Positions 231 to 52,232 of a DNA stretch of 64,000 nucleotides are shown here, one piece after another. A program made the position numbers and the translations under genes. The notes beneath the pieces were generated by a model. The model was given only the letters and a program-made list of their open reading frames with translations. It ran no database searches and was not told the DNA's origin. The stretch comes from Bolinopsis microptera. Lineage: Eukaryota > Ctenophora > Tentaculata > Lobata > Bolinopsidae. The stretch's first letter is position 1. Each line of letters starts with the position of its first letter. The stretch lies in contig NC_087075.1 of NCBI RefSeq assembly GCF_026151205.1, forward strand, positions 5,386,858-5,450,857, in the 5' to 3' direction.

Positions 231-564
231 GCCTCCCCCTTCTCAGATTCTCATATCCATCAGTATCGTAAAGTAGTAGTAAATATTCTCATTTATAATT
301 CTAAAAATGATTTTACTTAGGCCATAGTTGTCGTCAGAATATTAGGAGGTTGCTTGAAATTCTATAAAATGTATATTGTAAATAATAATTAGTTTACTAC
401 TGTTAAAGTCTTGTTGAATCATTATATTATAGGGTTACTCATAGGAGACGATAGCTATATATTTAGTATATAATTTATGTGCAAAAGCTAAAAATGATTT
501 GGTGAAAAACAATAATTTGTCTAAAATATTTGTCGTTGTTCGACATTAAAGTACAAATTCTTAC

Positions 565-625
565 CTTCGTTCGTATCAGCACTTGCAGTCCCAAATAGGA
601 AGAGAAACGAAAACAATTTCAACAT
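565..625 (-). CDS. Signal-peptide exon of an array gene (gene E, partial)
   Basis: First coding exon, ATG at 625 reading leftward, encoding MLKLFSFLFLFGTASADTNE, a typical signal peptide with a hydrophobic core and small residues before the predicted cleavage (TASA). It ends in phase 1 at a GTAAG donor (565/564). It is nearly identical to the first exon at 27796-27856 and similar to that at 36327-36387, so it is the 5' exon of another member of the tandem family. The remaining exons lie left of the window. Its upstream region is interrupted 145 bp away by the giant palindromic element, which separates it from the conserved CACGTG sites now at 16759-16936. Confidence 0.75.
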
Positions 626-764
626 TCCTAATTTTAGAAGATTGGTGATTAACTGAGACAGATTAGAGGGACACACAGTACAGGGAGGTTTAAGCGATTA
701 ATTTAATCATTATCAAATACAAATTCTAAACAAGGGATAGTTAAAACGAACATGCTAAATCACT

Positions 765-770
765 CTACAC
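765..770. repeat. Target-site duplication, left copy (CTACAC)
   Basis: CTACAC abuts the left end of the palindromic element; the same six bases recur at 16580-16585 after its right end. The homologous uninterrupted sequence at about 25225-25240 and 36495-36510 carries a single CTATAC followed by TCGAA, so this is a 6-bp duplication made on insertion. Confidence 0.88.
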
Positions 771-814
771 TATGGTGGCCGAGGTGGGTCATTGTAAATT
801 ATTTCAAAATAAAT

Positions 815-1017
815 TTAGAAAACCAAAAAAAACCAAAAAATAACCAAACTTTTAAAAAATAAACCAAAAATAAATTAAAAAAAAACAAAAAAAAAACTAA
901 ACTAAAAAAAACTTTAAAAAAACCAAAAAAAAAACAATTTAAAACAATAAAAAGCCAAAACAAAAAAAAAACAAAAAAAAATTTAAAAAAAACCAAAAAA
1001 AATTCAAAACAAAAATG
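815..1017 (+). repeat. Subterminal A-rich low-complexity tract (left)
   Basis: About 200 bp of A-runs interrupted by CC and T (AACCAAAAAA words), 45 bp inside the left terminus, mirrored by a T-rich tract at about 16345-16535. Lengths of the runs differ between arms. Between 1018 and 1700 lie CG-rich GCGCGCGC and GATCGCGCTAACGCG stretches but no gene. Confidence 0.8.
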
Positions 1018-1717
1018 AAATCGCTCCATATGGCCGAAATGTGCCATCAGCAGTCCTCACTGCGCGCCACAAAGAACGTACGTTGCGCGCGCGCGCAGAT
1101 GTCTACAATTGTACCAAATGGCGATCGCGCTAACGCGTGCTTATTGTTCCCTCACGTGTAGTCTGATCCAGTTATTATTATCCACCTATTATTGTACTTC
1201 AGGTGAAATATATATGGCATACCGATAAACTCCTGTATTTGACGTGTGATTTAAGCGTGCTTGAAAACGACTGCAGACATTAGGTTATTGAGATTGAGTT
1301 CAGCATCTTGCCCGGCCCCATTGGCCGGACAAATCTCTATATAAATTTGTGTTCAAAGTTGGGAGATTACTTGGGCTTTTTATATTTTGTAGGATGATGT
1401 TAGCAGTGAAACAAAAATGTCATCAAAGTCAATAATTTAATAATCAGACCCATATATAAAACAACCAAGTATATGTTATAATTTAACAAAACATTGTAGT
1501 AGGATGATGTTAGCAGTGAAACAAACATTTTATCATAATAACTTACTTCGTATTCTAATCCTTAGAAAAGAATTGTACCAACTTTATAATTTACGGAGTT
1601 TAACATTTAAACTTTTAAGTTAACTTGAAATCCTTATAACATGATTTTATGGGTAATGGCTGGCTGTACCGAAGAAAAAACAGTACAAAAACCAACAGAA
1701 GAATCAAACCCACATAT

Positions 1718-2052
1718 AAAACAACCAAGTAAATGTTATAATTTAACAAAACATTGTAGTTCTGCTAAAAAGAATTCAATGTTAAAATTTAATGTTAAAA
1801 ATTGAATGTTAAAAATCTAAAAATCAATTTCATGCGTTTAATCGAGGTTTAAATGTGTTTAACCAACCAAGTAAATGTTAAAACAACCAGGTAAATGTTA
1901 TAATTTAACAAAACATTGTAGTTCTGCTAAAAAGAATTCAATGTTTTAATGTTAAAATTTAATGTTAAAAATTGAATGTTAAAAATCTAAAAATCAATTT
2001 CATGCGTTTAATCGAGGTTTAAATGTGTTTAACCAACCAAGTAAATGTTAGT
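1718..2052 (+). repeat. Two tandem copies of a ~165-bp AT-rich repeat (left arm)
   Basis: The block beginning ACAACCAAGTAAATGTTATA and ending TTAACCAACCAAGTAAATGTTA occurs twice in tandem, containing repeated AATGTTAAAA words. It lies just beyond the 3' end of the integrase gene and is mirrored at about 15305-15645. A shorter related piece at about 1440-1530 shares ATATAAAACAACCAAGTATA and AGGATGATGTTAGCAGTGAA. Confidence 0.7.
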
Positions 2053-2138
2053 ACAAAAACCAACAGAAGCTTTTTTACGATATTTATAACTAAACGTTCT
2101 TTATTAATAAAATCTCGGCCTCAACGAGACGGAAATTA

Positions 2139-5100
2139 TCAAAATCTGGTATCTCGATAGACCGCTTCCCTTATTCGTGTGTATTCCGCTTTAACCCCAC
2201 TTACCTGAAGTTCCTGAAACGGGTAAATATTTTAGCAAAAACGTTGCCTAACTATTACATGTTCATAGCCAGTCATTATTACGTGTTCATAGCCAGTCAT
2301 CGGAGTAAGATATATATATATTCCAGTTGCTTTTAGAACAATTTTATCTCAGATAACGATGTTTAATAAAATGATGCAAAGACTTGTTTCGAAGATCTAA
2401 TCAACACCGACTTTTAATGTGTAGGAGTACAGCTACAAAATATATATATATACGACAAACGATAACAATTAATATGAGAGGGGAAGTAGGATGCATTTGA
2501 AGACACTTACTGCTATCCGAGGGAGAGCAGCAACGAGGTATTCAGACGCCAACTCCGAATTAATTTTAATACCAGTAAAAACGTTGGACAAAATATCAGC
2601 GTCAGTGAAACTCTCTATATCCTTGTCAGAAAGCATGATTCCACACTCCTGAATGATAAATAATACCTGATAATTAATAAGAGAGGGGAAAATAAATAAA
2701 AATTGGGCCCAGATAATGGGTTTTCTGTCTGCTAATTTGTATAGCTATGATTGGGTTGTTTTTGTTTGCTAATTTATCTGATTGCGTTAGCCAACACTGT
2801 TGACGGTTTTTAGTAAAGAATAATTCATTGGATCTAATCAAACTAACCTCTCCGCCGTACTCTTCTGGGCACGAATACACATGCTCAGGGATTGTTCCTG
2901 ATGGAAGTTCCACGTTGCGCTGCTTTCTTCCCCTGAACAGATTTATTAGATTATTAGATATGCACTTAAAGAGGCCTCATGTAGCCTCCAGGCTCGAAAA
3001 ACCCCGAAAAACCCCGACACACCCCGAAAAACCCCGACAAACCCCGACACACCCCGACATATCCCGACAAACCCCGACAGACCCCGACAAACCCCGACGT
3101 GTCGAGATATGTCAGGGTATGTCGGATTATGTCAGTTTGCCCCAATAATTATTCAAACCCCGACACACGCCGAAATATCCCGACAAACCCCGACATATCC
3201 CGACAAACTTCGACAAACCCCGACAAACCCCGACACACCCCGACAAACCCCGACAAACCCCGACGTGTCGAGATATGTCGTATCATGTCGGGCCAACCGG
3301 CTACACGAGGCCTTTAAAGACATCCTATATGTTGTTTCTATTCTTGAATGTTTTCAGTAATTTCGTATTGCAGTTTACTATAAATTTATAATCCTACCTC
3401 ATATTGTTATGGTTCTCCCTGAATTCGTCGAGATAACGTTCGACAACAGGTATGAACACACCAGCAATTAAATCCCTGTCATACTCGCAACTTGAATCAT
3501 ACAGACCGTCTTGATCAATCTCTCTAAGTACGTGACGAAAACCATCACAAACCTTTTCGCGGACCTGTCAGCATTTTTTACTTGGAAAATGGGGACAAAC
3601 TATGGTATAAGTAAGGAAACGGACTTTGCTTTGCCTATGTTTGTTTCTTGTCGACAAATAATTGTTTTGAAAACGGTTGTGACCTAAGAAGTGAGCAAGA
3701 TCTAACCAGATTTAGCAAACATTTCACTCCAACTATTGCCTACCTGCCTCCACAATCGTTCTATTTTGTTGGCAGTAGAAGGACCAAGTATCGTTGTAAT
3801 CTCCTTGTCAACATTTTTCAGTTGCAATAGAGTTTTCTGAAAAAAAAGAGTGAAAACAAGCAGAATCCTGCGGTCTAACACCATAGCTTTAAGGTACGTA
3901 TTGAAATTTAATATGGAAACAGCATTTGTAGCAGACATGGCACAGGGACAGTAGGCAGTAGAATATATAAAAAACGCCTTGGAAAATTAACTCACGTGTA
4001 CAGCTGCAGCATGGACGGTCTCAGTTCCTTTGTCAAATCGAAGCATTTGCGGTAAAACTCTAGATTCCAGCAGATGGTCAAACAAAATACGTCCAATAAC
4101 TTCACTGTCTCTATTAGACCGCCCAATGTACAAGAAGATGATTTTCCTACTGTAAGTATCAAGGGCCCTGTGAAAAATTAAAAAGAATTAATAACGCTAG
4201 CATATCGCCCGACCTAAGAACCAACTTTATAAATATAATGAAATCTTATCATGATGATCAGCAATGTTTAAATTATGAATTACTTTAATTTTAAGCATCC
4301 CTCCCCATCACCTCTTAATAAAATACACTGCTAAAAATACATTGTTTAACTGTTTCATACTCAACAGCTATAAATTCACCCTTCTCCCAAAAGTCTTCCT
4401 CCGAGCTTTTCTCCCTGTTACATGATAGATAAGATTTGTTTGATTTGTTCAAGCTCCCCGTCAAGATTGAAGGGCCTTAATTTTGCTCACATCATTTCTA
4501 CAGTCTAAAACTTATATCATAGTTTGGTTATATTCTGTGTTTAAGCCCCTTGCCAAAATTAAAAGATCGGTACCACGCTATAGTCTATACACTCTACAGG
4601 GGCAGAACACCAAATAGGTGCTACAGTATAGTGATATAACTGATTGGCTGATAAGGGGGAAATCTTATCCAATGCTGTGCTCCCATACTGTCACATGATG
4701 CACTCAATCTCATCACGTAGTGTGTGCGCTCATGTCACGTGACAATATTCAGTCAGGTGCACCGTGCACACACTCAATCATGGTTATACAACATACACAT
4801 GATATGCGCCCAGAAATGCCCAGCAGGGTTATCTTTCTAGCTGATGTTGACAGTGGGATTACCCGTTTAATCCCGCCCCTTATGAGCCATCCCGCCCCTT
4901 TCAAAACATCATGAAGGAATTTATAAGTTGTGGGATGGTATAAAAACAATTAGAGCTCAGCAATGGCATGTTTTCACACAAACAAGAAATGTAACATACC
5001 CATATATTTTGAGGTCGAATTGGCAGTTGGCATCCCCACTTAACTTGTCATGGCCATCCAGACTCCATAAGTAGTTTGGCCCCTTGCTGAAGAAGGTCTT

Positions 5101-6244
5101 CTTAGGCCTCTTATTCTTGAACTTTGGAGTGCGCATAACAACACCTTGTGGATCAACTAACCTTAGTGTATTCATAACATCATCTCTCGATACGAAGAGG
5201 CCTTGAGACCTGCAACAAGGAACAGTGAATATACTGAATATTGATAAATAAGGTGTATATATACACATATATGCATTATACCGTTCCTTAACATCGTGAT
5301 GCCATTGTTTTAATACTACTTCAAGGCGCCTCAATTATTATAAAAATGTTTACTCCTTTTTTCATTGACGTGTTTAAATATTTTAACTTGTTACATTAAC
5401 ACTACAAATTTGCCCTTTTTAGTGTACCTTAGTTTTTCAGTCACATCCCGGTATCCTAATTGGCCCGAACTTTCGTTAACAACATTCTGTACCGCCGTCA
5501 GCAAAGTATGATCATCAACATCATTGTGTCGTTTAATGTTCCAGTGATTCAGCATTCTGCAAAGCACTTATTAGTGAAACTTTTAGTTTTACTGAAAATG
5601 TTTTGTTTTACTCAATCAATCCATGTGTATTGTGTACACATATGCACAACAGATTTTTGTTTTTAATATGTGGTCATTTGGTAAAGTATAAGTTTCGGTG
5701 TTAATCTTTAGTTCAAATACCAGTGAGGTAGATCGTAGAGGGCTGAGGGAGTGGAAGGTTTTTCGTCAGAAATATGAAAATTCAAAACCCATTCGATATG
5801 TTCATAGTAACTTGACTAGACTTAAACGCACTTGTGTGCTCATGAGTGTAATGAAGGAGGGTCCAATAAGGGTTAAATACACGGCGCAATTCTGCAACGT
5901 TTTACGTTGACATAGCAAAACTGAACTGCACATTGAATGAGGGTCCAATAGGGGCGCGAGCAATTTTGCTATGTAAATATAACAAAATTGCGCCCCGCAT
6001 TAGACCCTCGTTCATTGCATCTATGAGCACACATGCAGTAATGAACAGTAAACACGATTTCCATTAATTTACAATGTTCATTGTCTGCATTATACCTTTT
6101 TACAGTGCGTTCTGAATAAGCCCTGTAGTTGGGGAACTTCTTTGGCAGGAGTGAAGTAATCTCGCTGCAAGTATAGTTGGATGCTCTTGAAGCCTCCAAA
6201 AAGTGTCTCAGATCTTCGTCTCCCATCCATGCTGGACCATCCAT
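2139..6244 (-). CDS. Integrase/transposase, left-arm copy, intact, nine exons
   Basis: Spliced from complement 6096-6244, 5428-5556, 5000-5209, 3996-4167, 3744-3836, 3398-3564, 2848-2932, 2511-2648 and 2139-2213; every junction is GT..AG and all phases agree, giving 405 residues. Residues 1-50 are charged and probably helical; about 80-93 hold GYRDVTEKLR, a helix-turn-helix motif like that of IS3-type integrases. The catalytic core shows D144 (WSLDGHDKL), D208 (RFDKGTET) and E246 (NKIERLWRQ), with LDTYSRKI between, the pattern of the eukaryotic integrase-core family. The C-terminal third (YRDL..VFIPVVERYL, then ELPSGTIPEHVY) also recalls that family. It should cut and join element ends in the nucleus. 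The gene reads outward from the palindrome centre; an AATAAA-like signal follows the stop. The splice model is mine and untested. Confidence 0.85.
2998..3267 (+). repeat. CCCCGACAAA tandem arrays in integrase intron 6 (left)
   Basis: Two blocks (about 2998-3112 and 3156-3267) of a 10-bp repeat, ACCCCGACAA with variants ACAC, ATAT and AAAA, each ending in CGACGTGTCGAGATATGTC. On the gene's sense strand the unit reads CGGGGTTTGT. They sit between integrase exons 7 and 6, mirrored at 14094-14367. Confidence 0.85.
4733..4742. promoter_or_regulatory. GTCACGTGAC palindrome inside the element
   Basis: A perfect 10-bp E-box/CLEAR-type palindrome in the large intron 3 of the integrase gene; its mirror is at 12645-12654. 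It may be chance, but the same word recurs upstream of host genes in this window. Confidence 0.3.
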
Positions 6245-6887
6245 GACATATACCTATATTTTATGTTCTCATGTTGTGAAATTATTCATGGGACAAAGCA
6301 ATATCACAAATTACTTTGCAATAATGTCCTAGTTGCACACAATATTTTGATGATATTCAACTTCATTATTTGTTATTTGGTAATGCAGAAGGTATTTTAA
6401 CAGTATTAATACCCTACTATATAATGAAGATCATCAAAAGGCACTGAAAGAAAAATTTTTATATTTTTGAAAGAAAAATTTTTATTTACCACAAAACAAT
6501 CAAAACATAATGTTATACGAAACGAAAACGAAACGAAACACTGTATTTACTACCCCGCTACTATGCGACAAAGATATTGTATAAAGATAACTAAATAATT
6601 TATACAATATGGTGCCCATGTCTGAGCGGCTCTCCTCAAATAACTTTCTCTCCTCCTCGGAGCAGAAAGTTAAAAACAAAACACAGGTCTCATAAATCAA
6701 AAAATACTAAATAATGTTAAAGAGATAATATCAGATTAACTGTCGCAGAAAAATGGTTAAAGTATACATATTACATAATTGATTTTATTGACACACCGAT
6801 AAAAACCAGAAAAACAAGAAGTGGATACTCGGAAAACAAAAAATAACACAAAAAAGACTAGAAGCCACAAAAAATAGCTTAACCAGG

Positions 6888-7022
6888 CTATAGCTGATCA
6901 TACAAATAGTTCTTTAACTTACCCTTAAAAGAGACAATATTCTCGATGTTACGGACATTAAGAGGGAGAGAATTCCATGATTCAGGTGCATAGTTGCTGA
7001 ACCGCCTGCTAGTTGCCTTCAA
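6888..7022 (-). pseudogene. LINE reverse-transcriptase C-terminal fragment (left arm)
   Basis: A 44-codon frame ending in a stop, with FSNYAPESWNSLPLNV followed by FKGKLKNYLYD. This is the classic C-terminal tail of CR1/L2/Jockey-type LINE proteins (xxAPxxWNSLPxxxR....FKxxLKxYL). It is a 3' fragment only; no other part of the LINE is seen upstream. The same fragment is mirrored at 10365-10499. Confidence 0.7.
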
Positions 7023-8520
7023 TTTAGAGAACTATATTCATAAATAAAATCAAATTTCAATTTCAACCACATATACAGTACGCCGCGCACACAGCCACTA
7101 TTTTGGTGGGCGTTCTTATAGTTCTACTGTTCCATATCTTCCAAAGATGGATACTAGGCTCAGGTTACTTGGCTCAGATCTCGTGTCTTCTGATGCTTTG
7201 AGAGGGCCTGACATGGTTCAGATCTCGAGCCTTGGGTCGGATCTCGATGTTTGAGGATCGTATCCTTTTCGGCACGCTTTGTAAACACATAAGCTTGTTA
7301 GATCAGATCTTGCGAAAGGCACCTGAGACCTTGTCATCTATTAGTACGCTTGTTATACAGATCGGATCAATACATAAGAAAGAGAGATGGTGGTCGCAGA
7401 ATCTAATTATGATTGTCTTCAGCAAGTACATCCGCTGACAAAGAGGAGCTGAACTACTTCTGGAGTCTGGACACAGACGGTGTCCTCAACACCCGGAGAA
7501 AGGATCGAGATACCCTACTACCTCTACCTGGAGATGCCAGAGGTACAGAATCAAGAAATGTCCTGCTCATGTAATCCTTGACCATGGAGATCAGTCCTTG
7601 GCCAGCGGTGCCAAACCTCATTCCCACGACCCTGACAACTTAAAGTTAAACTAGAGCGGTATTTGGAAACCTGTTTATCTTTTAGTTATTTCTAACTGAC
7701 GATTGGGTTCAGTTGTCGTTTCAAAGTTAATTAGGTAAACTGATTGGGTTTTTAATTATTTTCCCAAGCTACCCTGTCTAGGAAAAGTCCAAATTGGGTT
7801 CAGTTGTCCGGTAGCCTTTGAGGAGCTATAAAATAATGACATAATACATCTTACAATATCATACATTTAAAACACCATGAGGAGAAGTTAAACATAACTT
7901 TCGAGATACAAATCGAAAAGTTCAAACATCCAGACAAGATATTACTTACTATTAAGTATATGTGCTCCCAAAAAGTCTTAACGGCCATCTAACACCATGC
8001 TAGTAGCCAGCTGTTACAGTAATAGCCCAGCCCTCTTACACCCCTCTAATAGCCATAACACCACCAGTAGTTATCAGGTATAATCCACGATTCTGCCTTC
8101 ACAGATTATCAACCAGTGTCCAAAATTATTTAATAAAGGATATTAACATCACACCATTTATCCCCAATCGACAAAGATCATATTCCAAATGTCTTCAAAA
8201 ACTACAGACCAGTGTCAAACCTTGAGAAAATTGATTGAAAGAAAAGGCTACAGGAGCAATGAGCATGTAATGATAATCTCAATTTTCCAGACTCTACTTC
8301 TGGACAATATGCTTACAAAAGAGATCATAAATGGGTACTCCACATCAAAGAGAATACATGAAAACATAATTAGTAATCAAATTACACATCAAAAAGATAA
8401 CTAAATAGGGTGAAAAGGAGTTTCGAAATGCAACAATAATACTAAAAAACAACCTAGGTATTTTTGTGAAAATATGACAGTATCTGCTTTAGCGCTCGAT
8501 TTTCATACCACGGTGTAAAT
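7023..8520. other. Inner left arm without recognisable gene
   Basis: About 1.5 kb with several short open frames but no family I recognise; repeated CAGATCTCG words occur at 7170-7320. The mirror is 8867-10364. Confidence 0.5.
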
Positions 8521-8687
8521 TTTCGAAAATATGCGCGGCGCGCCTAAAATTTTGGTTCTATTAAAAATAAATTTTTTGGTCAAAATTATATTTAATATAT
8601 TGAAATTAGTTGTTATTACAGATATATGTTAAAATATTTCCAAAATATAGAATATAAGTACCCAAAATAAAATGCGCGCAAAAAAGT

Positions 8688-8699
8688 CAAAATTTTAAC
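8688..8699. other. Palindrome centre (12-bp spacer)
   Basis: The two arms meet at GCGCAAAAAAGT / ACTTTTTTGCGC with only CAAAATTTTAAC between them, itself partly self-complementary. Such a centre would extrude readily as a hairpin. The flanking 170 bp on each side include GCGCGGCGCGCC. Confidence 0.9.
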
Positions 8700-10364
8700 A
8701 CTTTTTTGCGCGCATTTTATTTTGGGTACTTATATTCTATATTTTGGAAATATTTTAACATATATCTGTAATAACAACTAATTTCAATATATTAAATATA
8801 ATTTTGACCAAAAAATTTATTTTTAATAGAACCAAAATTTTAGGCGCGCCGCGCATATTTTCGAAAATTTACACCGTGGTATGAAAATCGAGCGCTAAAG
8901 CAGATACTGTCATATTTTCACAAAAATACCTAGGTTGTTTTTTAGTATTATTGTTGCATTTCGAAACTCCTTTTCACCCTATTTAGTTATCTTTTTGATG
9001 TGTAATTTGATTACTAATTATGTTTTCATGTATTCTCTTTGATGTGGAGTACCCATTTATGATCTCTTTTGTAAGCATATTGTCCAGAAGTAGAGTCTGG
9101 AAAATTGAGATTATCATTACATGCTCATTGCTCCTGTAGCCTTTTCTTTCAATCAATTTTCTCAAGGTTTGACACTGGTCTGTAGTTTTTGAAGACATTT
9201 GGAATATGATCTTTGTCGATTGGGGATAAATGGTGTGATGTTAATATCCTTTATTAAATAATTTTGGACACTGGTTGATAATCTGTGAAGGCAGAATCGT
9301 GGATTATACCTGATAACTACTGGTGGTGTTATGGCTATTAGAGGGGTGTAAGAGGGCTGGGCTATTACTGTAACAGCTGGCTACTAGCATGGTGTTAGAT
9401 GGCCGTTAAGACTTTTTGGGAGCACATATACTTAATAGTAAGTAATATCTTGTCTGGATGTTTGAACTTTTCGATTTGTATCTCGAAAGTTATGTTTAAC
9501 TTCTCCTCATGGTGTTTTAAATGTATGATATTGTAAGATGTATTATGTCATTATTTTATAGCTCCTCAAAGGCTACCGGACAACTGAACCCAATTTGGAC
9601 TTTTCCTAGACAGGGTAGCTTGGGAAAATAATTAAAAACCCAATCAGTTTACCTAATTAACTTTGAAACGACAACTGAACCCAATCGTCAGTTAGAAATA
9701 ACTAAAAGATAAACAGGTTTCCAAATACCGCTCTAGTTTAACTTTAAGTTGTCAGGGTCGTGGGAATGAGGTTTGGCACCGCTGGCCAAGGACTGATCTC
9801 CATGGTCAAGGATTACATGAGCAGGACATTTCTTGATTCTGTACCTCTGGCATCTCCAGGTAGAGGTAGTAGGGTATCTCGATCCTTTCTCCGGGTGTTG
9901 AGGACACCGTCTGTGTCCAGACTCCAGAAGTAGTTCAGCTCCTCTTTGTCAGCGGATGTACTTGCTGAAGACAATCATAATTAGATTCTGCGACCACCAT
10001 CTCTCTTTCTTATGTATTGATCCGATCTGTATAACAAGCGTACTAATAGATGACAAGGTCTCAGGTGCCTTTCGCAAGATCTGATCTAACAAGCTTATGT
10101 GTTTACAAAGCGTGCCGAAAAGGATACGATCCTCAAACATCGAGATCCGACCCAAGGCTCGAGATCTGAACCATGTCAGGCCCTCTCAAAGCATCAGAAG
10201 ACACGAGATCTGAGCCAAGTAACCTGAGCCTAGTATCCATCTTTGGAAGATATGGAACAGTAGAACTATAAGAACGCCCACCAAAATAGTGGCTGTGTGC
10301 GCGGCGTACTGTATATGTGGTTGAAATTGAAATTTGATTTTATTTATGAATATAGTTCTCTAAA

Positions 10365-10499
10365 TTGAAGGCAACTAGCAGGCGGTTCAGCAACTATGCA
10401 CCTGAATCATGGAATTCTCTCCCTCTTAATGTCCGTAACATCGAGAATATTGTCTCTTTTAAGGGTAAGTTAAAGAACTATTTGTATGATCAGCTATAG
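10365..10499 (+). pseudogene. LINE C-terminal fragment (right arm)
   Basis: Mirror copy of 6888-7022, same 44-codon frame (APESWNSLPLNV, FKGKLKNYLYD) and the same stop. Its presence in both arms means the LINE piece was in the ancestral half-element before the palindrome formed, or was copied by arm-to-arm conversion. Confidence 0.7.
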
Positions 10500-11142
10500 C
10501 CTGGTTAAGCTATTTTTTGTGGCTTCTAGTCTTTTTTGTGTTATTTTTTGTTTTCCGAGTATCCACTTCTTGTTTTTCTGGTTTTTATCGGTGTGTCAAT
10601 AAAATCAATTATGTAATATGTATACTTTAACCATTTTTCTGCGACAGTTAATCTGATATTATCTCTTTAACATTATTTAGTATTTTTTGATTTATGAGAC
10701 CCGTGTTTTGTTTTTAACTTTCTGCTCCGAGGAGGAGAGAAAGTTATTTGAGGAGAGCCGCTCAGACATGGGCACCATATTGTATAAATTATTTAGTTAT
10801 CTTTATACAATATCTTTGTCGCATAGTAGCGGGGTAGTAAATACAGTGTTTCGTTTCGTTTTCGTTTCGTATAACATTATGTTTTGATTGTTTTGTGGTA
10901 AATAAAAATTTTTCTTTCAAAAATATAAAAATTTTTCTTTCAGTGCCTTTTGATGATCTTCATTATATAGTAGGGTATTAATACTGTTAAAATACCTTCT
11001 GCATTACCAAATAACAAATAATGAAGTTGAATATCATCAAAATATTGTGTGCAACTAGGACATTATTGCAAAGTAATTTGTGATATTGCTTTGTCCCATG
11101 AATAATTTCACAACATGAGAACATAAAATATAGGTATATGTC

Positions 11143-14100
11143 ATGGATGGTCCAGCATGGATGGGAGACGAAGATCTGAGACACTTTTTGGAGGCTTCAA
11201 GAGCATCCAACTATACTTGCAGCGAGATTACTTCACTCCTGCCAAAGAAGTTCCCCAACTACAGGGCTTATTCAGAACGCACTGTAAAAAGGTATAATGC
11301 AGACAATGAACATTGTAAATTAATGGAAATCGTGTTTACTGTTCATTACTGCATGTGTGCTCATAGATGCAATGAACGAGGGTCTAATGCGGGGCGCAAT
11401 TTTGTTATATTTACATAGCAAAATTGCTCGCGCCCCTATTGGACCCTCATTCAATGTGCAGTTCAGTTTTGCTATGTCAACGTAAAACGTTGCAGAATTG
11501 CGCCGTGTATTTAACCCTTATTGGACCCTCCTTCATTACACTCATGAGCACACAAGTGCGTTTAAGTCTAGTCAAGTTACTATGAACATATCGAATGGGT
11601 TTTGAATTTTCATATTTCTGACGAAAAACCTTCCACTCCCTCAGCCCTCTACGATCTACCTCACTGGTATTTGAACTAAAGATTAACACCGAAACTTATA
11701 CTTTACCAAATGACCACATATTAAAAACAAAAATCTGTTGTGCATATGTGTACACAATACACATGGATTGATTGAGTAAAACAAAACATTTTCAGTAAAA
11801 CTAAAAGTTTCACTAATAAGTGCTTTGCAGAATGCTGAATCACTGGAACATTAAACGACACAATGATGTTGATGATCATACTTTGCTGACGGCGGTACAG
11901 AATGTTGTTAACGAAAGTTCGGGCCAATTAGGATACCGGGATGTGACTGAAAAACTAAGGTACACTAAAAAGGGCAAATTTGTAGTGTTAATGTAACAAG
12001 TTAAAATATTTAAACACGTCAATGAAAAAAGGAGTAAACATTTTTATAATAATTGAGGCGCCTTGAAGTAGTATTAAAACAATGGCATCACGATGTTAAG
12101 GAACGGTATAATGCATATATGTGTATATATACACCTTATTTATCAATATTCAGTATATTCACTGTTCCTTGTTGCAGGTCTCAAGGCCTCTTCGTATCGA
12201 GAGATGATGTTATGAATACACTAAGGTTAGTTGATCCACAAGGTGTTGTTATGCGCACTCCAAAGTTCAAGAATAAGAGGCCTAAGAAGACCTTCTTCAG
12301 CAAGGGGCCAAACTACTTATGGAGTCTGGATGGCCATGACAAGTTAAGTGGGGATGCCAACTGCCAATTCGACCTCAAAATATATGGGTATGTTACATTT
12401 CTTGTTTGTGTGAAAACATGCCATTGCTGAGCTCTAATTGTTTTTATACCATCCCACAACTTATAAATTCCTTCATGATGTTTTGAAAGGGGCGGGATGG
12501 CTCATAAGGGGCGGGATTAAACGGGTAATCCCACTGTCAACATCAGCTAGAAAGATAACCCTGCTGGGCATTTCTGGGCGCATATCATGTGTATGTTGTA
12601 TAACCATGATTGAGTGTGTGCACGGTGCACCTGACTGAATATTGTCACGTGACATGAGCGCACACACTACGTGATGAGATTGAGTGCATCATGTGACAGT
12701 ATGGGAGCACAGCATTGGATAAGATTTCCCCCTTATCAGCCAATCAGTTATATCACTATACTGTAGCACCTATTTGGTGTTCTGCCCCTGTAGAGTGTAT
12801 AGACTATAGCGTGGTACCGATCTTTTAATTTTGGCAAGGGGCTTAAACACAGAATATAACCAAACTATGATATAAGTTTTAGACTGTAGAAATGATGTGA
12901 GCAAAATTAAGGCCCTTCAATCTTGACGGGGAGCTTGAACAAATCAAACAAATCTTATCTATCATGTAACAGGGAGAAAAGCTCGGAGGAAGACTTTTGG
13001 GAGAAGGGTGAATTTATAGCTGTTGAGTATGAAACAGTTAAACAATGTATTTTTAGCAGTGTATTTTATTAAGAGGTGATGGGGAGGGATGCTTAAAATT
13101 AAAGTAATTCATAATTTAAACATTGCTGATCATCATGATAAGATTTCATTATATTTATAAAGTTGGTTCTTAGGTCGGGCGATATGCTAGCGTTATTAAT
13201 TCTTTTTAATTTTTCACAGGGCCCTTGATACTTACAGTAGGAAAATCATCTTCTTGTACATTGGGCGGTCTAATAGAGACAGTGAAGTTATTGGACGTAT
13301 TTTGTTTGACCATCTGCTGGAATCTAGAGTTTTACCGCAAATGCTTCGATTTGACAAAGGAACTGAGACCGTCCATGCTGCAGCTGTACACGTGAGTTAA
13401 TTTTCCAAGGCGTTTTTTATATATTCTACTGCCTACTGTCCCTGTGCCATGTCTGCTACAAATGCTGTTTCCATATTAAATTTCAATACGTACCTTAAAG
13501 CTATGGTGTTAGACCGCAGGATTCTGCTTGTTTTCACTCTTTTTTTTCAGAAAACTCTATTGCAACTGAAAAATGTTGACAAGGAGATTACAACGATACT
13601 TGGTCCTTCTACTGCCAACAAAATAGAACGATTGTGGAGGCAGGTAGGCAATAGTTGGAGTGAAATGTTTGCTAAATCTGGTTAGATCTTGCTCACTTCT
13701 TAGGTCACAACCGTTTTCAAAACAATTATTTGTCGACAAGAAACAAACATAGGCAAAGCAAAGTCCGTTTCCTTACTTATACCATAGTTTGTCCCCATTT
13801 TCCAAGTAAAAAATGCTGACAGGTCCGCGAAAAGGTTTGTGATGGTTTTCGTCACGTACTTAGAGAGATTGATCAAGACGGTCTGTATGATTCAAGTTGC
13901 GAGTATGACAGGGATTTAATTGCTGGTGTGTTCATACCTGTTGTCGAACGTTATCTCGACGAATTCAGGGAGAACCATAACAATACTGCAATACGAAATT
14001 ACTGAAAACATTCAAGAATAGAAACAACATATAGGATGTCTTTAAAGGCCTCGTGTAGCCGGTTGGCCCGACATGATACGACATATCTCGACACGTCGGG

Positions 14101-15221
14101 GTTTGTCGGGGTTTGTCAGGGTTTGTCGGGGTTTGTCGGGGTTTGTCGAAGTTTGTCGGGATATGTCGGGGTTTGTCGGGATATTTCGGCGTGTGTCGGG
14201 GTTTGAAATAATTATTGGGGCAAACTGACATAATCCGACATACCCTGACATATCTCGACACGTCGGGGTTTGTCGGGGTCTGTCGGGGTTTGTCGGGATA
14301 TGTCGGGGTGTGTCGGGGTTTGTCGGGGTTTTTCGGGGTGTGTCGGGGTTTTTCGGGGTTTTTCGAGCCTGGAGGCTACATGAGGCCTCTTTAAGTGCAT
14401 ATCTAATAATCTAATAAATCTGTTCAGGGGAAGAAAGCAGCGCAACGTGGAACTTCCATCAGGGACAATCCCTGAGCATGTGTATTCGTGCCCAGAAGAG
14501 TACGGCGGAGAGGTTAGTTTGATTAGATCCAATGAATTATTCTTTACTAAAAACCGTCAACAGTGTTGGCTAACGCAATCAGATAAATTAGCAAACAAAA
14601 ACAACCCAATCATAGCTATACAAATTAGCAGACAGAAAACCCATTATCTGGGCCCAATTTTTATTTATTTTCCCCTCTCTTATTAATTATCAGGTATTAT
14701 TTATCATTCAGGAGTGTGGAATCATGCTTTCTGACAAGGATATAGAGAGTTTCACTGACGCTGATATTTTGTCCAACGTTTTTACTGGTATTAAAATTAA
14801 TTCGGAGTTGGCGTCTGAATACCTCGTTGCTGCTCTCCCTCGGATAGCAGTAAGTGTCTTCAAATGCATCCTACTTCCCCTCTCATATTAATTGTTATCG
14901 TTTGTCGTATATATATATATTTTGTAGCTGTACTCCTACACATTAAAAGTCGGTGTTGATTAGATCTTCGAAACAAGTCTTTGCATCATTTTATTAAACA
15001 TCGTTATCTGAGATAAAATTGTTCTAAAAGCAACTGGAATATATATATATCTTACTCCGATGACTGGCTATGAACACGTAATAATGACTGGCTATGAACA
15101 TGTAATAGTTAGGCAACGTTTTTGCTAAAATATTTACCCGTTTCAGGAACTTCAGTTAAGTGGGGTTAAAGCGGAATACACACGAATAAGGGAAGCGGTC
15201 TATCGAGATACCAGATTTTGA
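11143..15221 (+). pseudogene. Integrase/transposase, right-arm copy, exon-6 donor lost
   Basis: Mirror of the left-arm gene: exons 11143-11291, 11831-11959, 12178-12387, 13220-13391, 13551-13643, from 13823, 14428-14512, 14712-14849 and 15147-15221. Relative to the left arm, 28 bp (ending exon 6 and including its GTAGG donor) are missing after codon AAC-AAT at about 13982. Read on, the frame meets TGA at 14003-14005, so the likely product stops after about 312 residues. It keeps all three catalytic residues but lacks the last ~100. One further change is L for V near the start of exon 9. A truncated but possibly active or dominant-negative protein is conceivable; I see no alternative donor in phase. 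Confidence 0.78.
14094..14367 (-). repeat. CGGGGTTTGT tandem arrays (right arm)
   Basis: Mirror of the arrays at 2998-3267, in two blocks (about 14094-14205 and 14259-14367). It differs from the left by at least two substitutions and one extra A in the spacer (TTTGAAATAATTATTGG). Confidence 0.82.
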
Positions 15222-16579
15222 TAATTTCCGTCTCGTTGAGGCCGAGATTTTATTAATAAAGAACGTTTAGTTATAAATATCGTAAAAAAGCTTCTGTTGG
15301 TTTTTGTACTAACATTTACTTGGTTGGTTAAACACATTTAAACCTCGATTAAACGCATGAAATTGATTTTTAGATTTTTAACATTCAATTTTTAACATTA
15401 AATTTTAACATTAAATTTTAACATTGAATTCTTTTTAGCAGAACTACAATGTTTTGTTAAATTATAACATTTACCTGGTTGTTTTAACATTTACTTGGTT
15501 GGTTAAACACATTTAAACCTCGATTAAACGCATGAAATTGATTTTTAGATTTTTAACATTCAATTTTTAACATTAAATTTTAACATTGAATTCTTTTTAG
15601 CAGAACTACAATGTTTTGTTAAATTATAACATTTACTTGGTTGTTTTATATGTGGGTTTGATTCTTCTGTTGGTTTTTGTACTGTTTTATCTTCGGTACA
15701 GCCAGCCATTACCCATAAAATCATGTTATAAGGATTTCAAGTTAACTTAAAAGTTTAAATTTTAAACTCCGTAAATTATAAAGTTGGTACAATTCTTTTC
15801 TAAGGATTAGAATACGAAGTAAGTTATTATGATAAAATGTTTGTTTCACTGCTAACATCATCCTACTACAATGTTTTGTTAAATTATAACATATACTTGG
15901 TTGTTTTATATATGGGTCTGATTATTAAATTATTGACTTTGATGACATTTTTGTTTCACTGCTAACATCATCCTACAAAATATAAAAAGCCCAAGTAATC
16001 TCCCAACTTTGAACACAAATTTATATAGAGATTTGTCCGGCCAATGGGGCCGGGCAAGATGCTGAACTCAATCTCAATAACCTAATGTCTGCAGTCGTTT
16101 TCAAGCACGCTTAAATCACACGTCAAATACAGGAGTTTATCGGTATGCCATATATATTTCACCTGAGGACAATAATAGGTGGATAATAATAACTGGATCA
16201 GACTACACGTGAGGGAACAATAAGCACGCGTTAGCGCGATCGCCATTTGGTACAATTGTAGACATCTGCGCGCGCGCAACGTACGTTCTTTGTGGCGCGC
16301 AGTGAGGACTGCTGATGGCACATTTCGGCCATATGGAGCGATTTCATTTTTGTTTTGATTTTTTTTTGGTTTTTTTTTAATTTTTTTTTGTTTTTTTTTG
16401 TTTTGGTTTTTTATTGTTTTAAATTGTTTTTCTTTTGGTTTTTTTTAAGTTTTTTTTAGTTTAGTTTTTTTAAAATTTATTTTTGGTTTATTTTTTAAAA
16501 GTTTGGTTATTTTTTGGTTTTTTTTGGTTTTCTAAATTTATTTTGAAATAATTTACAATGACCCACCTCGGCCACCATA

Positions 16580-16585
16580 CTACAC
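16580..16585. repeat. Target-site duplication, right copy (CTACAC)
   Basis: Second copy of the 6-bp duplication. The sequence after it (TCGAATTTCGAGATTTTTCTTAAAGG...) continues the host unit exactly as the uninterrupted paralogues at 25235 and 36505 do. Confidence 0.88.
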
Positions 16586-46800: not shown

Positions 46801-49800
46801 CGTATAACAGTGCTGGCGACTATTTTATGCAAATTTCTTAAAAATCTCAACATAACTATTTTTTATTCCTGTCATCTTTGACATCAAATTAGAATGTTTT
46901 GAACTAAAAACACTACCAAAGGGGGTATAATAGTAAAGGGGTATAATAGTAAAGGGGGTATAATAGTAAAGGGGGTATTATAGCTTTATAGTAAATGGGG
47001 AACATAGTATACCCACAATAAATGCAACGGTCGTGCTTGCCAGCACTGTGATATCACGACAATCTGTCGTAAAACAGGGGTTCTAGAAAACCCACTTCCC
47101 GATGTTCCTGAAACCTGAAACTTTTTTTGCAGTCGATTTGGTCCAACGTCTAGACGCCCTGAAAAATTTCAGATCTCTAACTCGATTTTAACATGGTTTT
47201 TAAGGCACCTGAATATGGCGATTTTGGGTTTTTTACCGAATTTCGTATAACAGTGCTGGCGAGTATTTTATGCAAATTTCTTAAAAATCTCAACATAACT
47301 ATTTTTTATTCCTGTCATCTTTGACATCAAATTAGAATGTTTTGAACTAAAATGAATCTGCTGAACGACTTCCGAAGAGTCTTAATGCCTGAAAAACTCC
47401 TGCCGGAGGCGGCGGCCTTCGGCCGCCGCCTCTGGCCGGAGTGCACGCTTCGCGTGCACGAAAGAGGCTTGTAACGTGTACCAAAGGGGGTATAATAGTA
47501 AAGGGGGTATAATAGTAAAGGGGGTACATAGTATACCCACAATAAATGCACCGGTCGTGCTTGCCAGCACTGTGATTGGTAACTCAAAACACCGAGGGGG
47601 ACATAATGTGTCGCTAGTCCCAACCCTGTGGGGGCCCCCCGATTCAGTATAAAAAACTCTGTACGTCGAAGTGCACACTCAACCCCTCCCTGCTACTAGA
47701 GTCTAGAGTATGTGGATATACATATAATCTAGCTTACCTGATCAATTGAGACAAAAAATGATTATTAAGTAAACAAGAATGATAACCTGTTGCTGTGGTT
47801 TGTCTGTAGAATTTAGATGCTGTGTCCTGGTGACCGAACCTTATATGCTTCACGTCTCTACTCCAGAACTCGCGCCATCCACTTTGATCACATTCATTTG
47901 ACAGCGTGATATCCAGCACTTTATCTCCGTTACATTGAACTCTAATCCTGGGTACTCCTGGGTGTTCCGATATCTCCAATATTGTGCCTTTAGTAAGTAG
48001 GGACGAGGGGAGGTTATAATGAATTCCGCAGTGTCTTTGACTTTGACAGTCACCGAGGGTGACTGTACCTACGCGTTGAACGTTATTATTATATTCTGTT
48101 CCGTCGTAGAAATGTACGACTACGCGCACCTTATTACTCGAAGCAGTGCTCTTTGTTTTGATTTGTAGATTTCCACTGTTCATGTCAAAGCGTTTAGGAT
48201 CGTTACGATCATTTTTAGATGGTACTGCTCTCCAACCTGTAAAGCAGCCAACTGATTCCTTTATTACAATAGCCCTTATATGTTTACATTTTTATTTTGA
48301 CATTAACAAGAACTACGTCCATTTTCTCGATGGGGGAGAACGCTTCATTTTCAGTGTATACTGGTACCTATTTACCTTTTTTAGCATGGTGGATTTGAAA
48401 CCAGTAACAATTTAATAGCTCTTACCTTCATTTTCATCATCGGCATCTTGACTTGAACTTAAAGGATTATCAGCAGCCACTCCCCTAAGGAGAAGAGTCA
48501 CACACAAGATCAGCCTAACATTCCTTACTCTCGTAAGAAACTTCTGCCGGCTAACAGAAGAGCGATCAAGGCCAAGGTGTTCCCACACGTTCATTGGCTA
48601 AACTTTCAACTTTCTACATGAGCTACGGAAAATAGGAAAATGAGGATCTAAACGCATTTACGTGAAAATGAACTAATTTTGAAACAACCAGACTGGAGAC
48701 TCAAGACTTCAGAACCGATAGATTTGAGAGGAGAGTCTATTCGGAACAGTGCAATCCAAGACGAAACTGCCGATTCGACAAACAGAGACGTTACATCATT
48801 ATAGTTATACACAGTAAAAAGTGTAAACGTAAATGATAAATCCCATTTTCATGAGATAAATATTTCCTTTCGTTTTCATCAATCTGTGCTCTATCAATTC
48901 AATGCAAATGCACGAAATCATCAAATAATTATACATTTTGATGTGACTGATGTGGTTCCTAATCTCTAAGTGCAAACCCGTCCTACGGATTGTGACATAG
49001 TATACCATTTCACCATATTTCGGGCTAAATACCACATATTATTGGGGCTCAGGCTGTATAACTTTGCCAAAAACGTGTCTCTGTAGCTTTCTGGCTTTTG
49101 ATATGGCATCTGTAATCCGAGCGAAGCAATGTGGATGTTAGAAAGCTATGTTAGGCTGCACTGAGTGCATTCGGTTTAAAGGGCCAGTGCTTGAAACAAA
49201 ACAACGATCAGTAACCTCCTTTTAGCACAACGCACTGCCCAGATGGCTAAGCTACAATATCACAAAATGCAGATTTATACCAAAAGCACGCTCTTTTGGG
49301 CCTCGCGGCAACCCTCATGTCACGTGACGCACGTATAACTAATTTACTATGTCACGTGACACATTAATACGTGTGTCACGTGACTACAAGACTGCCAGCA
49401 TAAGTAAGCCGGTTAAGGGGTAGGGGCTTGGAGAAGCTTACGGGTTATTTCCACATAATAGCTTTGTGTTAAGTAGCTGAGAGAGGGGAGGGGGAGTTTA
49501 ACATGGTCAGAGAATGGCTTGCGTAATATGTGAACAATCCCTAAGTTACTTGCCTGAAGAATATGTGAACAATCCCTAAGTTACTCGCCCGAAGAATATG
49601 TGAACAATCCTTAAGTTACTCGCCCGAAGATTATGTGAACAATCCCTTAGTTAATCGCCCGAAGAATATGTAAACGATCCCTAAGTTACTCGCCCGAAGA
49701 ATATGCGAACAATCTCTAAGTTACCCGCCTGAAGAATATGTGACCAATCCCTAAGTTACTCGCCCGAAGAATATGTGACCGATCCCTAAGTTACTCGCCT

Positions 49801-52232
49801 GAAGAATATGTGACCAATCCCTAAGTTACTCGCCTGAAGAATATGTGACCAATCCCCAGGGGTGTAGGAAGCGGGGGGGCAGGGGGGGCCATCGCCCCCC
49901 CATGAAATCTGGGCAAGGGGCCAAAAAGGGCCAACTTTTTAATTTAGGTTACTAAAAATTTTTGGAAAAACAATTTTCCCGAAAATTTTTGTTTTCGAAG
50001 TTCGATATACGAATTTGGACTCGATGGTTCCACTTTGTAATGCGATCTCGGAAGGCAGGCCTCCCCTTCGCGATACGAGCTCATAAGCGGGAGCTCTGCT
50101 TTCAGAGGTACGTATCGAGAATGACTCGGACCGAAAATTTTGTAAGTCAAAAATTTTCAAAGTTTTCTTGGAAACTACTTTTGTTCATGTTTCATGCTAC
50201 CCTGATCATTATGAGCCAAAAATATTTTTTTCGGTTTTTTTGAAGTACCTACATTTGGAAGGTTGTGGAAGTGACACTGATTGGTTTCATATACTAATTA
50301 TAGAAAACGTGATATTTGGTCCTCAGATTTAAAGGAAAATGCGCAATATGACGTGGAGAACTGAAAAAAAATCGCGATTTGTCGTGAGGCCCCCGAAATT
50401 AAGGCTTTGGTGCGAAGCGCCAAAAAATTTATGCTGTGGCGCGAAGCGCCAAAAAATATTTAGAATTTGGCCCCCCCATGAAGAAAATCATTCCTACACC
50501 CCTGCCAATACCTTAGTTACCCGCCCGAAGAATATGTGACCAATCCCTAAGTTACTCACCCGAAGAATGTGTGACCAATCCCTGAGTTACTCACCCGAAG
50601 AATATGTGACCAATCCCTAAGTTACTCGCCCGAAGAATATGTGAACAATCCCTAAGTTACTCGCCTGAAGAATATGTGAACAATCCCTAAGTTACTCGCC
50701 TGAAGAATATGTGAACAATCCATAAGTTACTCGCCCGAAGAATATGTGAACAATCCCTAAGTTACTCGCCTGAAGAATATGTGAACAATCCCTAAGTTAC
50801 TCGCCCGAAGAATATGTGACCAATCCCTAAGTTACTCGCCTGAAGAATATGTGACCAATCCCTAAGTTACTCGCCTGAAGAATATGTGAGCAATCCCTAA
50901 GTTACTCACCCGAAGAATATGTGAACAATCCCTAAGTTACTCGCCTGAAGAATATGTGACCAATCCCTAAGTTACTCACCCGAGAGCGGGCACAGTTTTC
51001 AGAATAACGTTTAACACAATGATCTTATACAAGGTCGCAGCGTGAGAGAGCTGCTTACTTAATACAGCGCAGGGAGTGAGTGGTTTGAATAAAGTCCTAT
51101 AGCTTATCACTGCGTGTTATAGACTACGCACTTAAATCTGATAAAACCACAAGTGAAACTCTATATTATCATACTCACGCGTCAAGGATGGGGATTGAAC
51201 GCAAGGGGGTGGTTGTAAAACAGTCTTCAACCTGAACTATGATTAAACATACGGTTTAACTCAAATTTACACAATTACATGACTCCAGAGCATGATCACT
51301 GACTTTATACACCTAGCGTTACTCTCGTAATTACCATCCAGAGGTTAATTGCACTGTGATGTGTACTATAACATTTGTACAAGGGTGAAGGACTGTTATC
51401 TCCGACGTTTTATATAAGGGGGTCCCATATTCTATGGTTGAAGCAGGAACTGTAATTACTTAAATTAGAAAACTCTTGACTTGTCATGAAGGAACAAAGG
51501 ATCTCGCAAACAGAACCACTGGAAACAATCTCCCGTTGTTAGAGAACATTAAATTATAATGTATCAGGAAGGTCGTTTGTTAAACTTCGTCTAAATAGTT
51601 ATAAATTTGAGCACCTTCATTATCCGATCCTACATTATCCTACATCTTCATAATCTGATCGTAAGTCAGGTAATAAAGAAGCGGTTTAGGCTAACATTAA
51701 AAATTACAACCTTCCTATTAATGATAATATCCTCTTGTGGGCCAACTAGGTCCAGCCTCTCTCTTAAAAACCTCCCTATTTTCCCAAAAATAACCTCCCT
51801 ATTTTCAGATAAAGTCTACCCTGAACTCCCCGGCAGTTAACAAAACATTCTGTGGATTCCAAAACTTGACAGATCCTCGACAAAGGACAAAAGACATTCT
51901 GGTGGAGAAGACGAAGATATTTGATAGCAGCATGAGGCCCATGTTGATGAAGTTTACCAATCAGGTTAGCTAAGTCTTATCTTGTGATTTTGTGTTTCTT
52001 GTTTCTTGTTTGTTCCGAAGACTTGGTACGAGCTTGTGGCCAATATTCACAATGTTGAACGTTGGGGTCAGAAATTCTGTTATGTTTAAAAGATATCCGG
52101 CAACATGCATCACGTTTAACTTTACGATAATAAAAAAATTTAGAAAGTTAGAATTATCATCTTTTTCCCAGGATCCAACATATAAACTGAACTTTGGGAT
52201 AATCTACAAGGAGGGTGACGATCTAAGACAAG
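37804..52232 (+). CDS. Class I-like PI3-kinase catalytic subunit, internal exons
   Basis: Four plus-strand exons. 37804-37873 reads [18 protein letters not shown] then HLKSQ, the helical-domain signature of p110 subunits. 38146-38304 continues in phase: [20 protein letters not shown], matching the LLLESYCRACG..L..LNRQ segment. 51809-51964 ends [11 protein letters not shown], like DSxxxPLWL. 52172-52232 reads [13 protein letters not shown], the conserved start of the kinase domain (IIFKNGDDLRQD), ending in phase 1. The phases of exons 2 and 3 agree (0/0), but by comparison about 15-20 residues are missing between them, so one exon in the 13.5-kb gap is unassigned. Upstream exons and the rest of the kinase domain were not found in the window. 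It phosphorylates phosphoinositides at the 3 position at the plasma membrane (known of the family). A minus-strand gene lies in the gap. Confidence 0.82.
38305..39187. other. PI3-kinase intron, no exon seen
   Basis: AT-rich intron; short open frames at 38351-38572 and 38864-39070 have no recognisable family. Confidence 0.5.
39188..39326. repeat. Repeat paired with 47577-47702
   Basis: 39188-39250 (CTAGTAGCAGGGAGGGGTTG, GAGTTTTTTATACTGAATC) is inverted at 47641-47702, while 39266-39326 (GGTAACTCAAATCACC, CGCTAGTCCCAACCCTGTG) is repeated in direct orientation at 47577-47635. These look like ends of one repeat family at both edges of the gene F intron region; no target duplication is evident. 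Confidence 0.55.
39566..48594 (-). CDS. Gene F: signal peptide, module, kringle, thrombospondin-1
   Basis: Exons complement 48426-48594, 47787-48236, 40886-41021, 39881-39996 and 39566-39742; all borders are GT..AG and phases agree throughout. Exon 1 has a signal/anchor segment [16 protein letters not shown] and an acidic tail. Exon 2 is the array module ([46 protein letters not shown]). Exons 3-4 make a full kringle with six Cys ([45 protein letters not shown]) split at the usual intron. Exon 5 is one TSP1 repeat with six Cys ([26 protein letters not shown]). The product, at least 349 residues and open at the 3' end (phase 1), is secreted or membrane-bound. It lies in a PI3-kinase intron on the opposite strand. 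The 6.8-kb intron 2 is full of foldbacks. Confidence 0.8.
40044..40065 (+). repeat. 22-bp poly-G run in kringle intron
   Basis: Uninterrupted G22 followed by G-rich and CGGACGTCCGG-containing sequence to about 40320 (two copies of GGAAATCCGGACGTCCGG-like text). A possible quadruplex former and a risk point for assembly length errors. Confidence 0.8.
41022..43143. other. Intron 2 of gene F, left part
   Basis: No supported exon. A plus-strand frame at 41111-41285 follows a CAG acceptor ([20 protein letters not shown]) but matches nothing I know and has no fitting partner. 43035-43130 is an inverted copy of text near 39330-39385 (AAATCTGTATCTC / GAGATACAGATTT). Confidence 0.45.
43144..47575. 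repeat. Nested inverted-repeat (foldback) complex
   Basis: A ~140-bp unit (TTTTACCAAAACCCATAATC ... AATGAAATCGGTC) occurs four times: forward at 43144 and 46177, inverted ending at 43652 and 46507, making two small foldbacks. Between them 43653-44605 is inverted at about 45215-46176, and the 44606-45215 centre is inverted again at 46508-47575, where a ~300-bp piece (46612-46912) is also duplicated at 47050-47340. Tandem 17-bp GGGGGTATAATAGTAAA units occur at 44653-44702, 46918-46985 and 47485-47525. No protein is recognisable; mirrored short frames in the arms are by-products. Confidence 0.75.
44611..44934. mobile_element. Possible non-autonomous hAT-like element
   Basis: Ends CAGTGCTGGCAAGCA and CTCGCCAGCACTG form an inverted pair of about 10 bp (CAGTGCTGGC), like hAT termini. 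The same ends recur at about 46806, 47250 and 47571, inside the foldback complex. No clear 8-bp duplication here. Confidence 0.35.
48595..49318 (-). other. Upstream region of gene F
   Basis: About 720 bp between the gene F start and the CACGTG cluster. No exon or known repeat is seen. Confidence 0.5.
49319..49384. promoter_or_regulatory. Cluster of three GTCACGTGAC palindromes
   Basis: Perfect GTCACGTGAC at 49319-49328, 49351-49360 and 49375-49384, spaced 32 and 24 bp. This is exactly the CLEAR consensus bound by TFEB/TFE3/MITF-type bHLH-ZIP factors (known in vertebrates). It lies about 725 bp upstream of the gene F ATG. Regulation is inferred. Confidence 0.55.
49523..50985 (+). repeat. 35-bp minisatellite, split by a MITE
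   Basis: About 23 copies of a 35-bp unit (GAAGAATATGTGAACAATCC + CTAAGTTACTCGCCC), with variants C/A at the GTGAAC/GTGACC site and CGCCC/CGCCT/CACCC. It is interrupted at 49857-50504 by an inserted element. Some copies have single substitutions; no coding reading is apparent. 50986-51808 has no supported gene. Confidence 0.9.
49857..50504. mobile_element. hAT-like MITE inside the minisatellite
   Basis: A 648-bp insertion with inverted ends CAGGGGTGTAGGAA / TTCCTACACCCCTG and 8-bp flanks CCAATCCC (49849-49856) and CCAATACC (50505-50512), one mismatch. The CAGGGG terminus and 8-bp duplication are hAT traits. It contains GGCGCGAAGCGCCAAAAAAT-type repeats and no transposase. Confidence 0.78.

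Follow-up and report, generated by a model that had tools for sequence, protein, structure and literature searches.

Architecture of the Palindromic Element

The window, a 64,000-nucleotide stretch of Bolinopsis microptera DNA, carries a whole palindromic element of the IS3EU type at 771..16579, as judged by its inverted repeats, its ends and an empty site. Self-comparison for inverted repeats reveals a near-perfect palindrome of 15.8 kb with a 12-nt loop. The longest inverted pair, 3402-8687 and 8700-13985, has 5,286 nt on each side with 12 nt between, and further pairs follow outwards (1945-3161 with 14199-15415, 1199-1950 with 15415-16166, and more to 771 and 16579). Because the inverted pairs run across the whole of 771-16579, an origin by chance or from short repeats is untenable. 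The initial annotation had the structure right in describing one 15.8-kb palindrome with a 12-bp centre.

The left arm (771..8687), placed by the inverted repeats, the arm alignment and an exon model, is the transposase half with its gene on the minus strand. The right arm (8700..16579), placed by the inverted repeats and the arm alignment, is its mirror with the gene on the plus strand. The loop between them, at 8688..8699, is the sole non-palindromic centre according to both the inverted repeats and the comparison of joints described below. When aligned, the arms (7,923 nt on the left and 7,886 nt on the right) show 19 mismatches in 7,880 aligned bases, 4 of them inside the loop, together with small indels and one 28-bp deletion. 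Altogether, the left/right differences form 24 runs, two of which are the loop. There is one mismatch only in the inner 5,286 nt, where the 100% given by the inverted-repeat scan is rounding.

Several repeats lie within the arms. The outermost stretch, 771..1986 on the plus strand (half positions 1-1216), matches the terminal inverted repeat of a nonpalindromic copy, C10, and its counterpart at the right end is 15374..16579 on the minus strand, a mirror position computed from the inverted repeats. At the centre, 8327..9060 is a mirrored piece of a high-copy dispersed repeat, inside which the palindrome is fused. A different dispersed repeat of 519 bp, with a presumed 4-bp TATA duplication, occupies 6514..7032 on the plus strand of the left arm and the mirror site in the right arm (10355..10873, minus strand, position mirrored).

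Copies in the Genome

The genome (264.7 Mb in 232 contigs) was searched with window positions 771-1100 (330 bases), and the counts from this search are lower bounds. There are at least 71 matches. Nine of them reach 94% identity or more across 317 or more of the 330 bases; the others are shorter or weaker. The nine close matches are distributed two each to the window copy, C5:1340897-1359488, C10:9968922-9987071 and C1:20859265-20873814, with one on C6. The C6 match (15710373-15710705) is limited to the outer 317 bp of the family within the 19.2 kb taken, and a left end was not found there. A 3.1-kb relative with diverged ends lies at C11:10532034-10535124.

By self-comparison, three of the four close copies found with both ends (the window copy, C5 and C1) are palindromic, with arms of 6.7 kb or more, and C10 is an ordinary element. 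The genome search does not bear out a possibility raised at the outset, that every other copy would be ordinary and this locus misassembled. Five stretches containing other IS3EU-like loci show no palindrome across their genes; in one of them there is also a distinct inverted repeat of 1.4 kb. This repeat (L021:212-1620, that is, C5:6696711-6698119) is a self-complementary repeat of 93.7% identity near a diverged IS3EU-like transposase exon, and it is probably a separate foldback-like element.

Ends, Target Duplications and Empty Sites

The element in the window ends in TATGGTGGCC and GGCCACCATA, exactly at 771 and 16579, and is flanked by the target-site duplication CTACAC at 765..770 and 16580..16585. 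The window copy, C5, C1, C10 and C11 all have termini of the form TATGG..CCATA on both sides. The target duplications of the three palindromes are CTACAC (window), CTTATT (C5) and GTCACCG (C1). The duplication is 6 bp long at the window copy, C5 and C11, and there is a 7-bp match at C1 and C10.

Joining the two window flanks with a single CTACAC gave a 200-base query that matches C4:5584650-5584849, about 0.2 Mb away, over its full length and at 199 of 200 bases, with 1 mismatch. When longer flanks are compared with this empty site, the left 770 bp are 99.9% identical and the right 4,000 bp are 98.2% identical. The two stretches of flank homology overlap by exactly the 6-bp duplication, which implies that the element entered as a unit. 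The clean ends, 6-bp duplication and paralogous empty site reported initially are all borne out here, and at the level of sequence comparison the window palindrome is confirmed to be a real mobile unit. The joined flanks of C5 are found uninterrupted over 200 bases in at least 40 matches, and 15 of the 40 listed share the top score. By this criterion the C5 insertion is in a high-copy repeat. A search with the C1 flanks found no empty site elsewhere in the genome.

The Transposase Gene and Classification

The transposase predicted from the left-arm sequence has 394 aa encoded in 8 exons with GT-AG borders, and this model replaces the 405-residue product proposed initially. The exons are on the minus strand at 6096..6244, 5428..5556, 5000..5209, 3996..4167, 3744..3836, 3398..3564, 2848..2932 and 2469..2648, the last including the stop. 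Catalytic residues were assigned by eye as D144 in exon 3, D208 in exon 4 and E246 in exon 5. The protein matches the rva_4 integrase core (PF24764) at 83.6 bits where the cut-off is 26, and the rve and HTH_21 profiles fall below their cut-offs; exon 4 has an rva_4 match and a weak rve match. A sequence search of the PDB gave no match.

The gene in the right arm, mirrored from the left model, spans 11143..14891 on the plus strand. Exact mirror images of the left arm are seen in exons 1-5 and 8 (11143-11291, 11831-11959, 12178-12387, 13220-13391, 13551-13643 and 14712-14891). Exon 6, beginning at 13823, is cut short, and exon 7, with its end at 14512, shows a single difference. The cut is made by the 28-bp deletion, whose junction is at 13985..13986 and which removes the end of exon 6 with its splice donor. 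The initial reading of an integrase encoded twice, therefore, holds in that two copies of the gene are present, but only the left one is undamaged.

When the exons are mapped through the alignment, three of these arms keep an open frame, namely the left one of the window copy and the two of C5. In the C5 left arm this is so even with a 3.9-kb insertion directly before the last transposase acceptor. That insertion (in the region L001:2395-6337) has GGGGGGGGTGTCA..TGACACCCCCCCC-like ends and an AATGAT duplication, and it is found in one arm only. By the same mapping, both C1 genes have a common frameshift in exon 3, and exon 1 of the C10 gene contains a frameshift. Comparison of the window left arm with C10 shows differences at 10 of 1,175 exon sites, against 56 of 2,168 intron sites (p = 4e-4), and 6 of the 10 changed codons alter the residue. 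The lower rate in exons is a sign of selection on the transposase protein, although the C10 frame is broken.

Judged by its sequence features, the element is classed as an IS3EU-type DNA transposon. The initial annotation had called it IS3EU-like, and the rva_4 core, the TATGG..CCATA ends and the 6-bp duplication agree with that. IS3EU elements are described in PMC10045372 as having TA..TA ends and duplications that are usually 6 bp. A Polinton-like or viral element appears unlikely: the IS3EU features of ends and duplication are present, and no match to the DNA polymerase B or capsid of Polinton/Maverick elements was found among ten frames scanned from the window and C10. Nor was a P-type transposase or THAP domain, as in Foldback/Galileo, found in searches at E up to 1, where only rva_4, weak rve and weak HTH_21 matches appear.

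The Ordinary Form and Its Alpha-Kinase

C10 has terminal repeats of about 1.2 kb around an interior of about 16 kb and shows no palindrome on self-comparison. Its right part is homologous, with gaps, to one half of the window element; the homology starts at the end (18650) and reaches the palindrome centre at about 11801. In its left part, the match to the palindrome is confined to the first 1,200 bases, which are the terminal repeat. There, a 292-codon open frame encodes an alpha-kinase (PF02816, 80.6 bits, 2.1e-22 in a profile search). The alpha-kinase and transposase of C10 are on opposite strands in opposite halves, and both face outwards. No kinase match is present in any of the three palindromes. 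The palindromes are, then, the transposase half of C10 twice, head to head, with the kinase half absent.

A 2025 paper on TET-bearing fungal IS3EU elements (PMC12730594) gives them a transposase and an alpha-kinase in opposite orientation, TAYGG..CCRTA ends and 6-bp duplications. On gene content and arrangement, we take C10 to be the ordinary form and the palindromes to be derived. A more distant locus likewise has kinase and transposase on opposite strands, at C10:1352336 and 1362475, these being the positions of the genes. At C12:2826035 and at C7:18778561, the two genes are on the same strand. The small contig C195 (7378-10773) repeats the kinase-transposase locus C7:18778561-18781948 with the same scores and is perhaps an unpurged haplotype copy.

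The Fusion Joint

The centre of both C5 and C1 reads GCGCGCAAAAAAGTCAAAATTTTAACACTTTTTTGGATTTTTATTTTGGGTAC, and the joint, which is asymmetric, is identical in the two. It lies a few bases beyond a short hairpin (AAAAAAGT..ACTTTTTT), where the sequence switches at TTTTA to the mirror strand, so that both copies read GGATTTTTA and then TTTTGGG. The switch is a 5 bp microhomology (TTTTA) inside the passenger repeat. Just past the hairpin C10 has GGACCTTTG, unlike the GGATTTTTA of the joint, which matches copies of the passenger repeat elsewhere, and at the joint position C10 reads ..ACTTTTTTGGACCTTTG. Among the dispersed-repeat copies compared with the joint, five have GCGCGCAAAAAAGTCAAAATTTTTACCACTTTTTTGGATTTTTACC and one has ..TACT (six matched; a seventh gave no match). 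The passenger repeat is common: 38 of the 45 matches to the centre that were listed, with 40 of 224 candidates scored, fall outside these elements.

The window copy has the same loop, but with GCGCGC on either side. Compared with C5 and C1, its joint is a symmetrised one. Because C5 and C1 share an identical asymmetric joint, the palindrome appears to have formed once and then moved as a unit. The shared joint is the main evidence, from sequence, that a single origin is most likely, and likewise it is most likely that the palindromes moved as a unit after they formed. Since the joint lies internally, fusion at a shared outer end is rejected. The proposal of a head-to-head fusion of two copies sharing an outer end survives in its head-to-head geometry; in place of the shared outer ends, the transposase half is duplicated at an inner 5-bp microhomology switch, without the alpha-kinase half.

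Apparent Concerted Evolution of the Arms

If the arms had evolved independently since one fusion, all left arms should group against all right arms. No left/right split across the three elements is seen at gap-free sites in half positions 301-7916. This test and the tree use only columns in which all six arms have a base, and the tree is built on 6,173 of them. The joint itself sets the right arms of C5 and C1 apart from the remaining arms, and it splits C5 and C1 only. In the tree, the two window arms group at 98 and the two C1 arms at 100, and the window and C5 arms fall together, apart from C1, at 95. The arms of C5 do not group with each other. Length differences follow the elements as well: the 519-bp dispersed repeat at mirror sites of both window arms is absent from C5, C1 and C10, and a 202-bp insertion is in both C1 arms and in no other arm.

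Both window arms and the left arm of C5 have A at half positions 7248 and 7403, and G stands there in the right arm of C5, in C1 and in C10. It is as if the right arm of the window copy had been overwritten from the left. At site 1551, the arms group in the same way, but C10 has the other base. The right arm of C1 has 31 private substitutions between half positions 1855 and 3090. Simple arm-to-arm conversion does not explain these; either this arm escaped conversion there or the tract came from another copy. On these comparisons, the arms appear to evolve largely in concert in the window copy and C1 but not in C5, and since the C5 arms do not group, the homogenisation is patchy.

An unlikely reading of the same patterns is that palindromes arose recurrently, with C1 and the lineage of the window copy and C5 fusing independently at the same hairpin; the changes shared between arms would then mostly predate the fusions, and little conversion would be needed. 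The hairpin may be a hotspot, and the separation in the tree, with the C1 arms paired at 100 against the group at 95, is what such a history would give. The C1 arms also share 40 body differences from all window and C5 arms, of which, by comparison with C10, 28 are new in C1, nine are not and three are indeterminate. Against this are the identity and asymmetry of the joint in C5 and C1, and the fact that the pattern at 7248 and 7403 and the symmetrised centre of the window copy require conversion anyway.

We give much less weight still to the idea that each transposition regenerates the palindrome from one arm through a hairpin-ended replication intermediate. It would account for the symmetric centre of the window copy and for the single left/right difference in its inner 5.3 kb. 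However, C5 and C1 retain the original asymmetric joint, which also argues against the initial suggestion of hairpin resolution, in so far as it meant renewal at each move. Moreover, the differences between the window arms amount to 12 runs in the outer 2,331 bases and 1 run in the inner 5,286 bases (p = 6e-6), a comparison that begins after the first 300 bases, which are A-rich and contain a further 7 runs. This distribution fits better with a long conversion tract than with whole-arm renewal. Large palindromes are a familiar long-read artefact, but assembly from foldback reads is the least credible account of all, misassembly being unlikely because the arms carry private differences (the 28-bp deletion in the window right arm, the 3.9-kb insertion in the C5 left arm only and an 842-bp insertion in the C1 left arm only), while matching target duplications bound each element, one centre is common to three loci, and two of the palindromes (window and C5) have an empty site.

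Proposed Formation and Spread of the Palindrome

The account that we consider most likely is that of a cut-and-paste IS3EU element in palindromic form, which formed once, moved as a unit and later had its arms homogenised by conversion. Interrupted repair of an excision gap is a natural occasion for such a rearrangement in a cut-and-paste element. The palindrome would have arisen in a single event while a break or gap was being repaired, such as one left when a parent copy was excised. At the hairpin and the TTTTA microhomology, a 3' end may have folded back on itself or changed template; foldback priming near inverted repeats is documented at yeast breaks (PMC10622511). With foldback, the founding site would at first carry inverted flanks, which later transposition would shed. 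Alternatively, both ends could have copied the same half, the terminal repeats being alike, and the flanks would stay normal. The founding locus of the palindrome was not found in this genome.

With two functional outer ends, the product could be mobilised by its own integrase or by an integrase acting in trans, and would insert at other sites as one unit. As mapped, the C10 gene and both genes of C1 carry frameshifts, so transposition in trans is a possibility. Gene conversion between the arms would afterwards homogenise them, and in the window copy, a conversion tract passing through the centre would have overwritten the original joint, leaving the palindrome almost perfect. More tentatively, and with somewhat more doubt than belief, we suggest that this is a self-sustaining palindromic lineage, which lost the kinase half, doubled the transposase half, uses its arms as mutual repair templates through gene conversion, so that either arm could restore or overwrite its partner in the manner of Y-chromosome palindromes, and has out-multiplied its parent in this genome (three against one among close two-ended copies).

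Relationship to Known Systems

The family resembles other IS3EU elements in its TA..TA ends of the TAYGG..CCRTA type, its 6-bp duplications, its DDE integrase core and, in C10, an alpha-kinase opposite the transposase. It differs in that three of the four close two-ended copies lack the kinase half and have the transposase half doubled, in arms of 6.7 kb or more. Galileo and Foldback in Drosophila likewise have very long terminal inverted repeats that recombine, and Galileo is the closest example of inverted repeats that expand. For Galileo, PMC3573991 describes a 441-bp inverted duplication that lengthened a repeat, with the same central region in other copies, and repeats that reach about 1.26 kb, the longest-repeat copies described there being without a transposase frame. 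Here, the arms contain the transposase, and it is of another superfamily.

Foldback inversions at double-strand breaks in yeast and cancer are similar in that short inverted repeats near a break lead to head-to-head duplication (PMC10622511). The product here differs in being bounded by transposon ends and in occurring at several loci. The palindromes of primate Y chromosomes have gene-bearing arms that are kept alike by inter-arm gene conversion. The likeness extends to the gene-bearing, converting arms, and the difference is that here the palindrome itself is the transposon. A search for palindromic transposons in the open-licence PubMed Central literature, by title and start of abstract, found only short palindromic elements, the nearest being a mobile family of yeast mitochondria (PMC4478555) and the Made1 miniature element (PMC1784062).

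The three elements present IS3EU in the form of a giant palindrome, whose formation and spread can be traced at base-pair resolution through an ordinary relative, a joint and three descendants in one genome. The palindromes suggest that the alpha-kinase half is dispensable in cis for IS3EU movement and that both ends can be transposase-side. Large palindromes are generally held to be unstable, yet the window copy suggests that one of 15.8 kb, with a loop of 12 nt, can survive in a eukaryotic genome. The family would also be a natural system in which to study gene conversion between palindrome arms away from sex chromosomes.

Other Features of the Window

Far to the right of the element, the window has two tandem arrays built from almost identical 35-bp units, at 49525-49856 and 50505-50983, about 650 bp apart. 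From 52530 to 53100 and beyond, the strand is C- and A-rich and G-poor, with a GC skew of -0.71 and an AT skew of 0.35 over 52001-54000.
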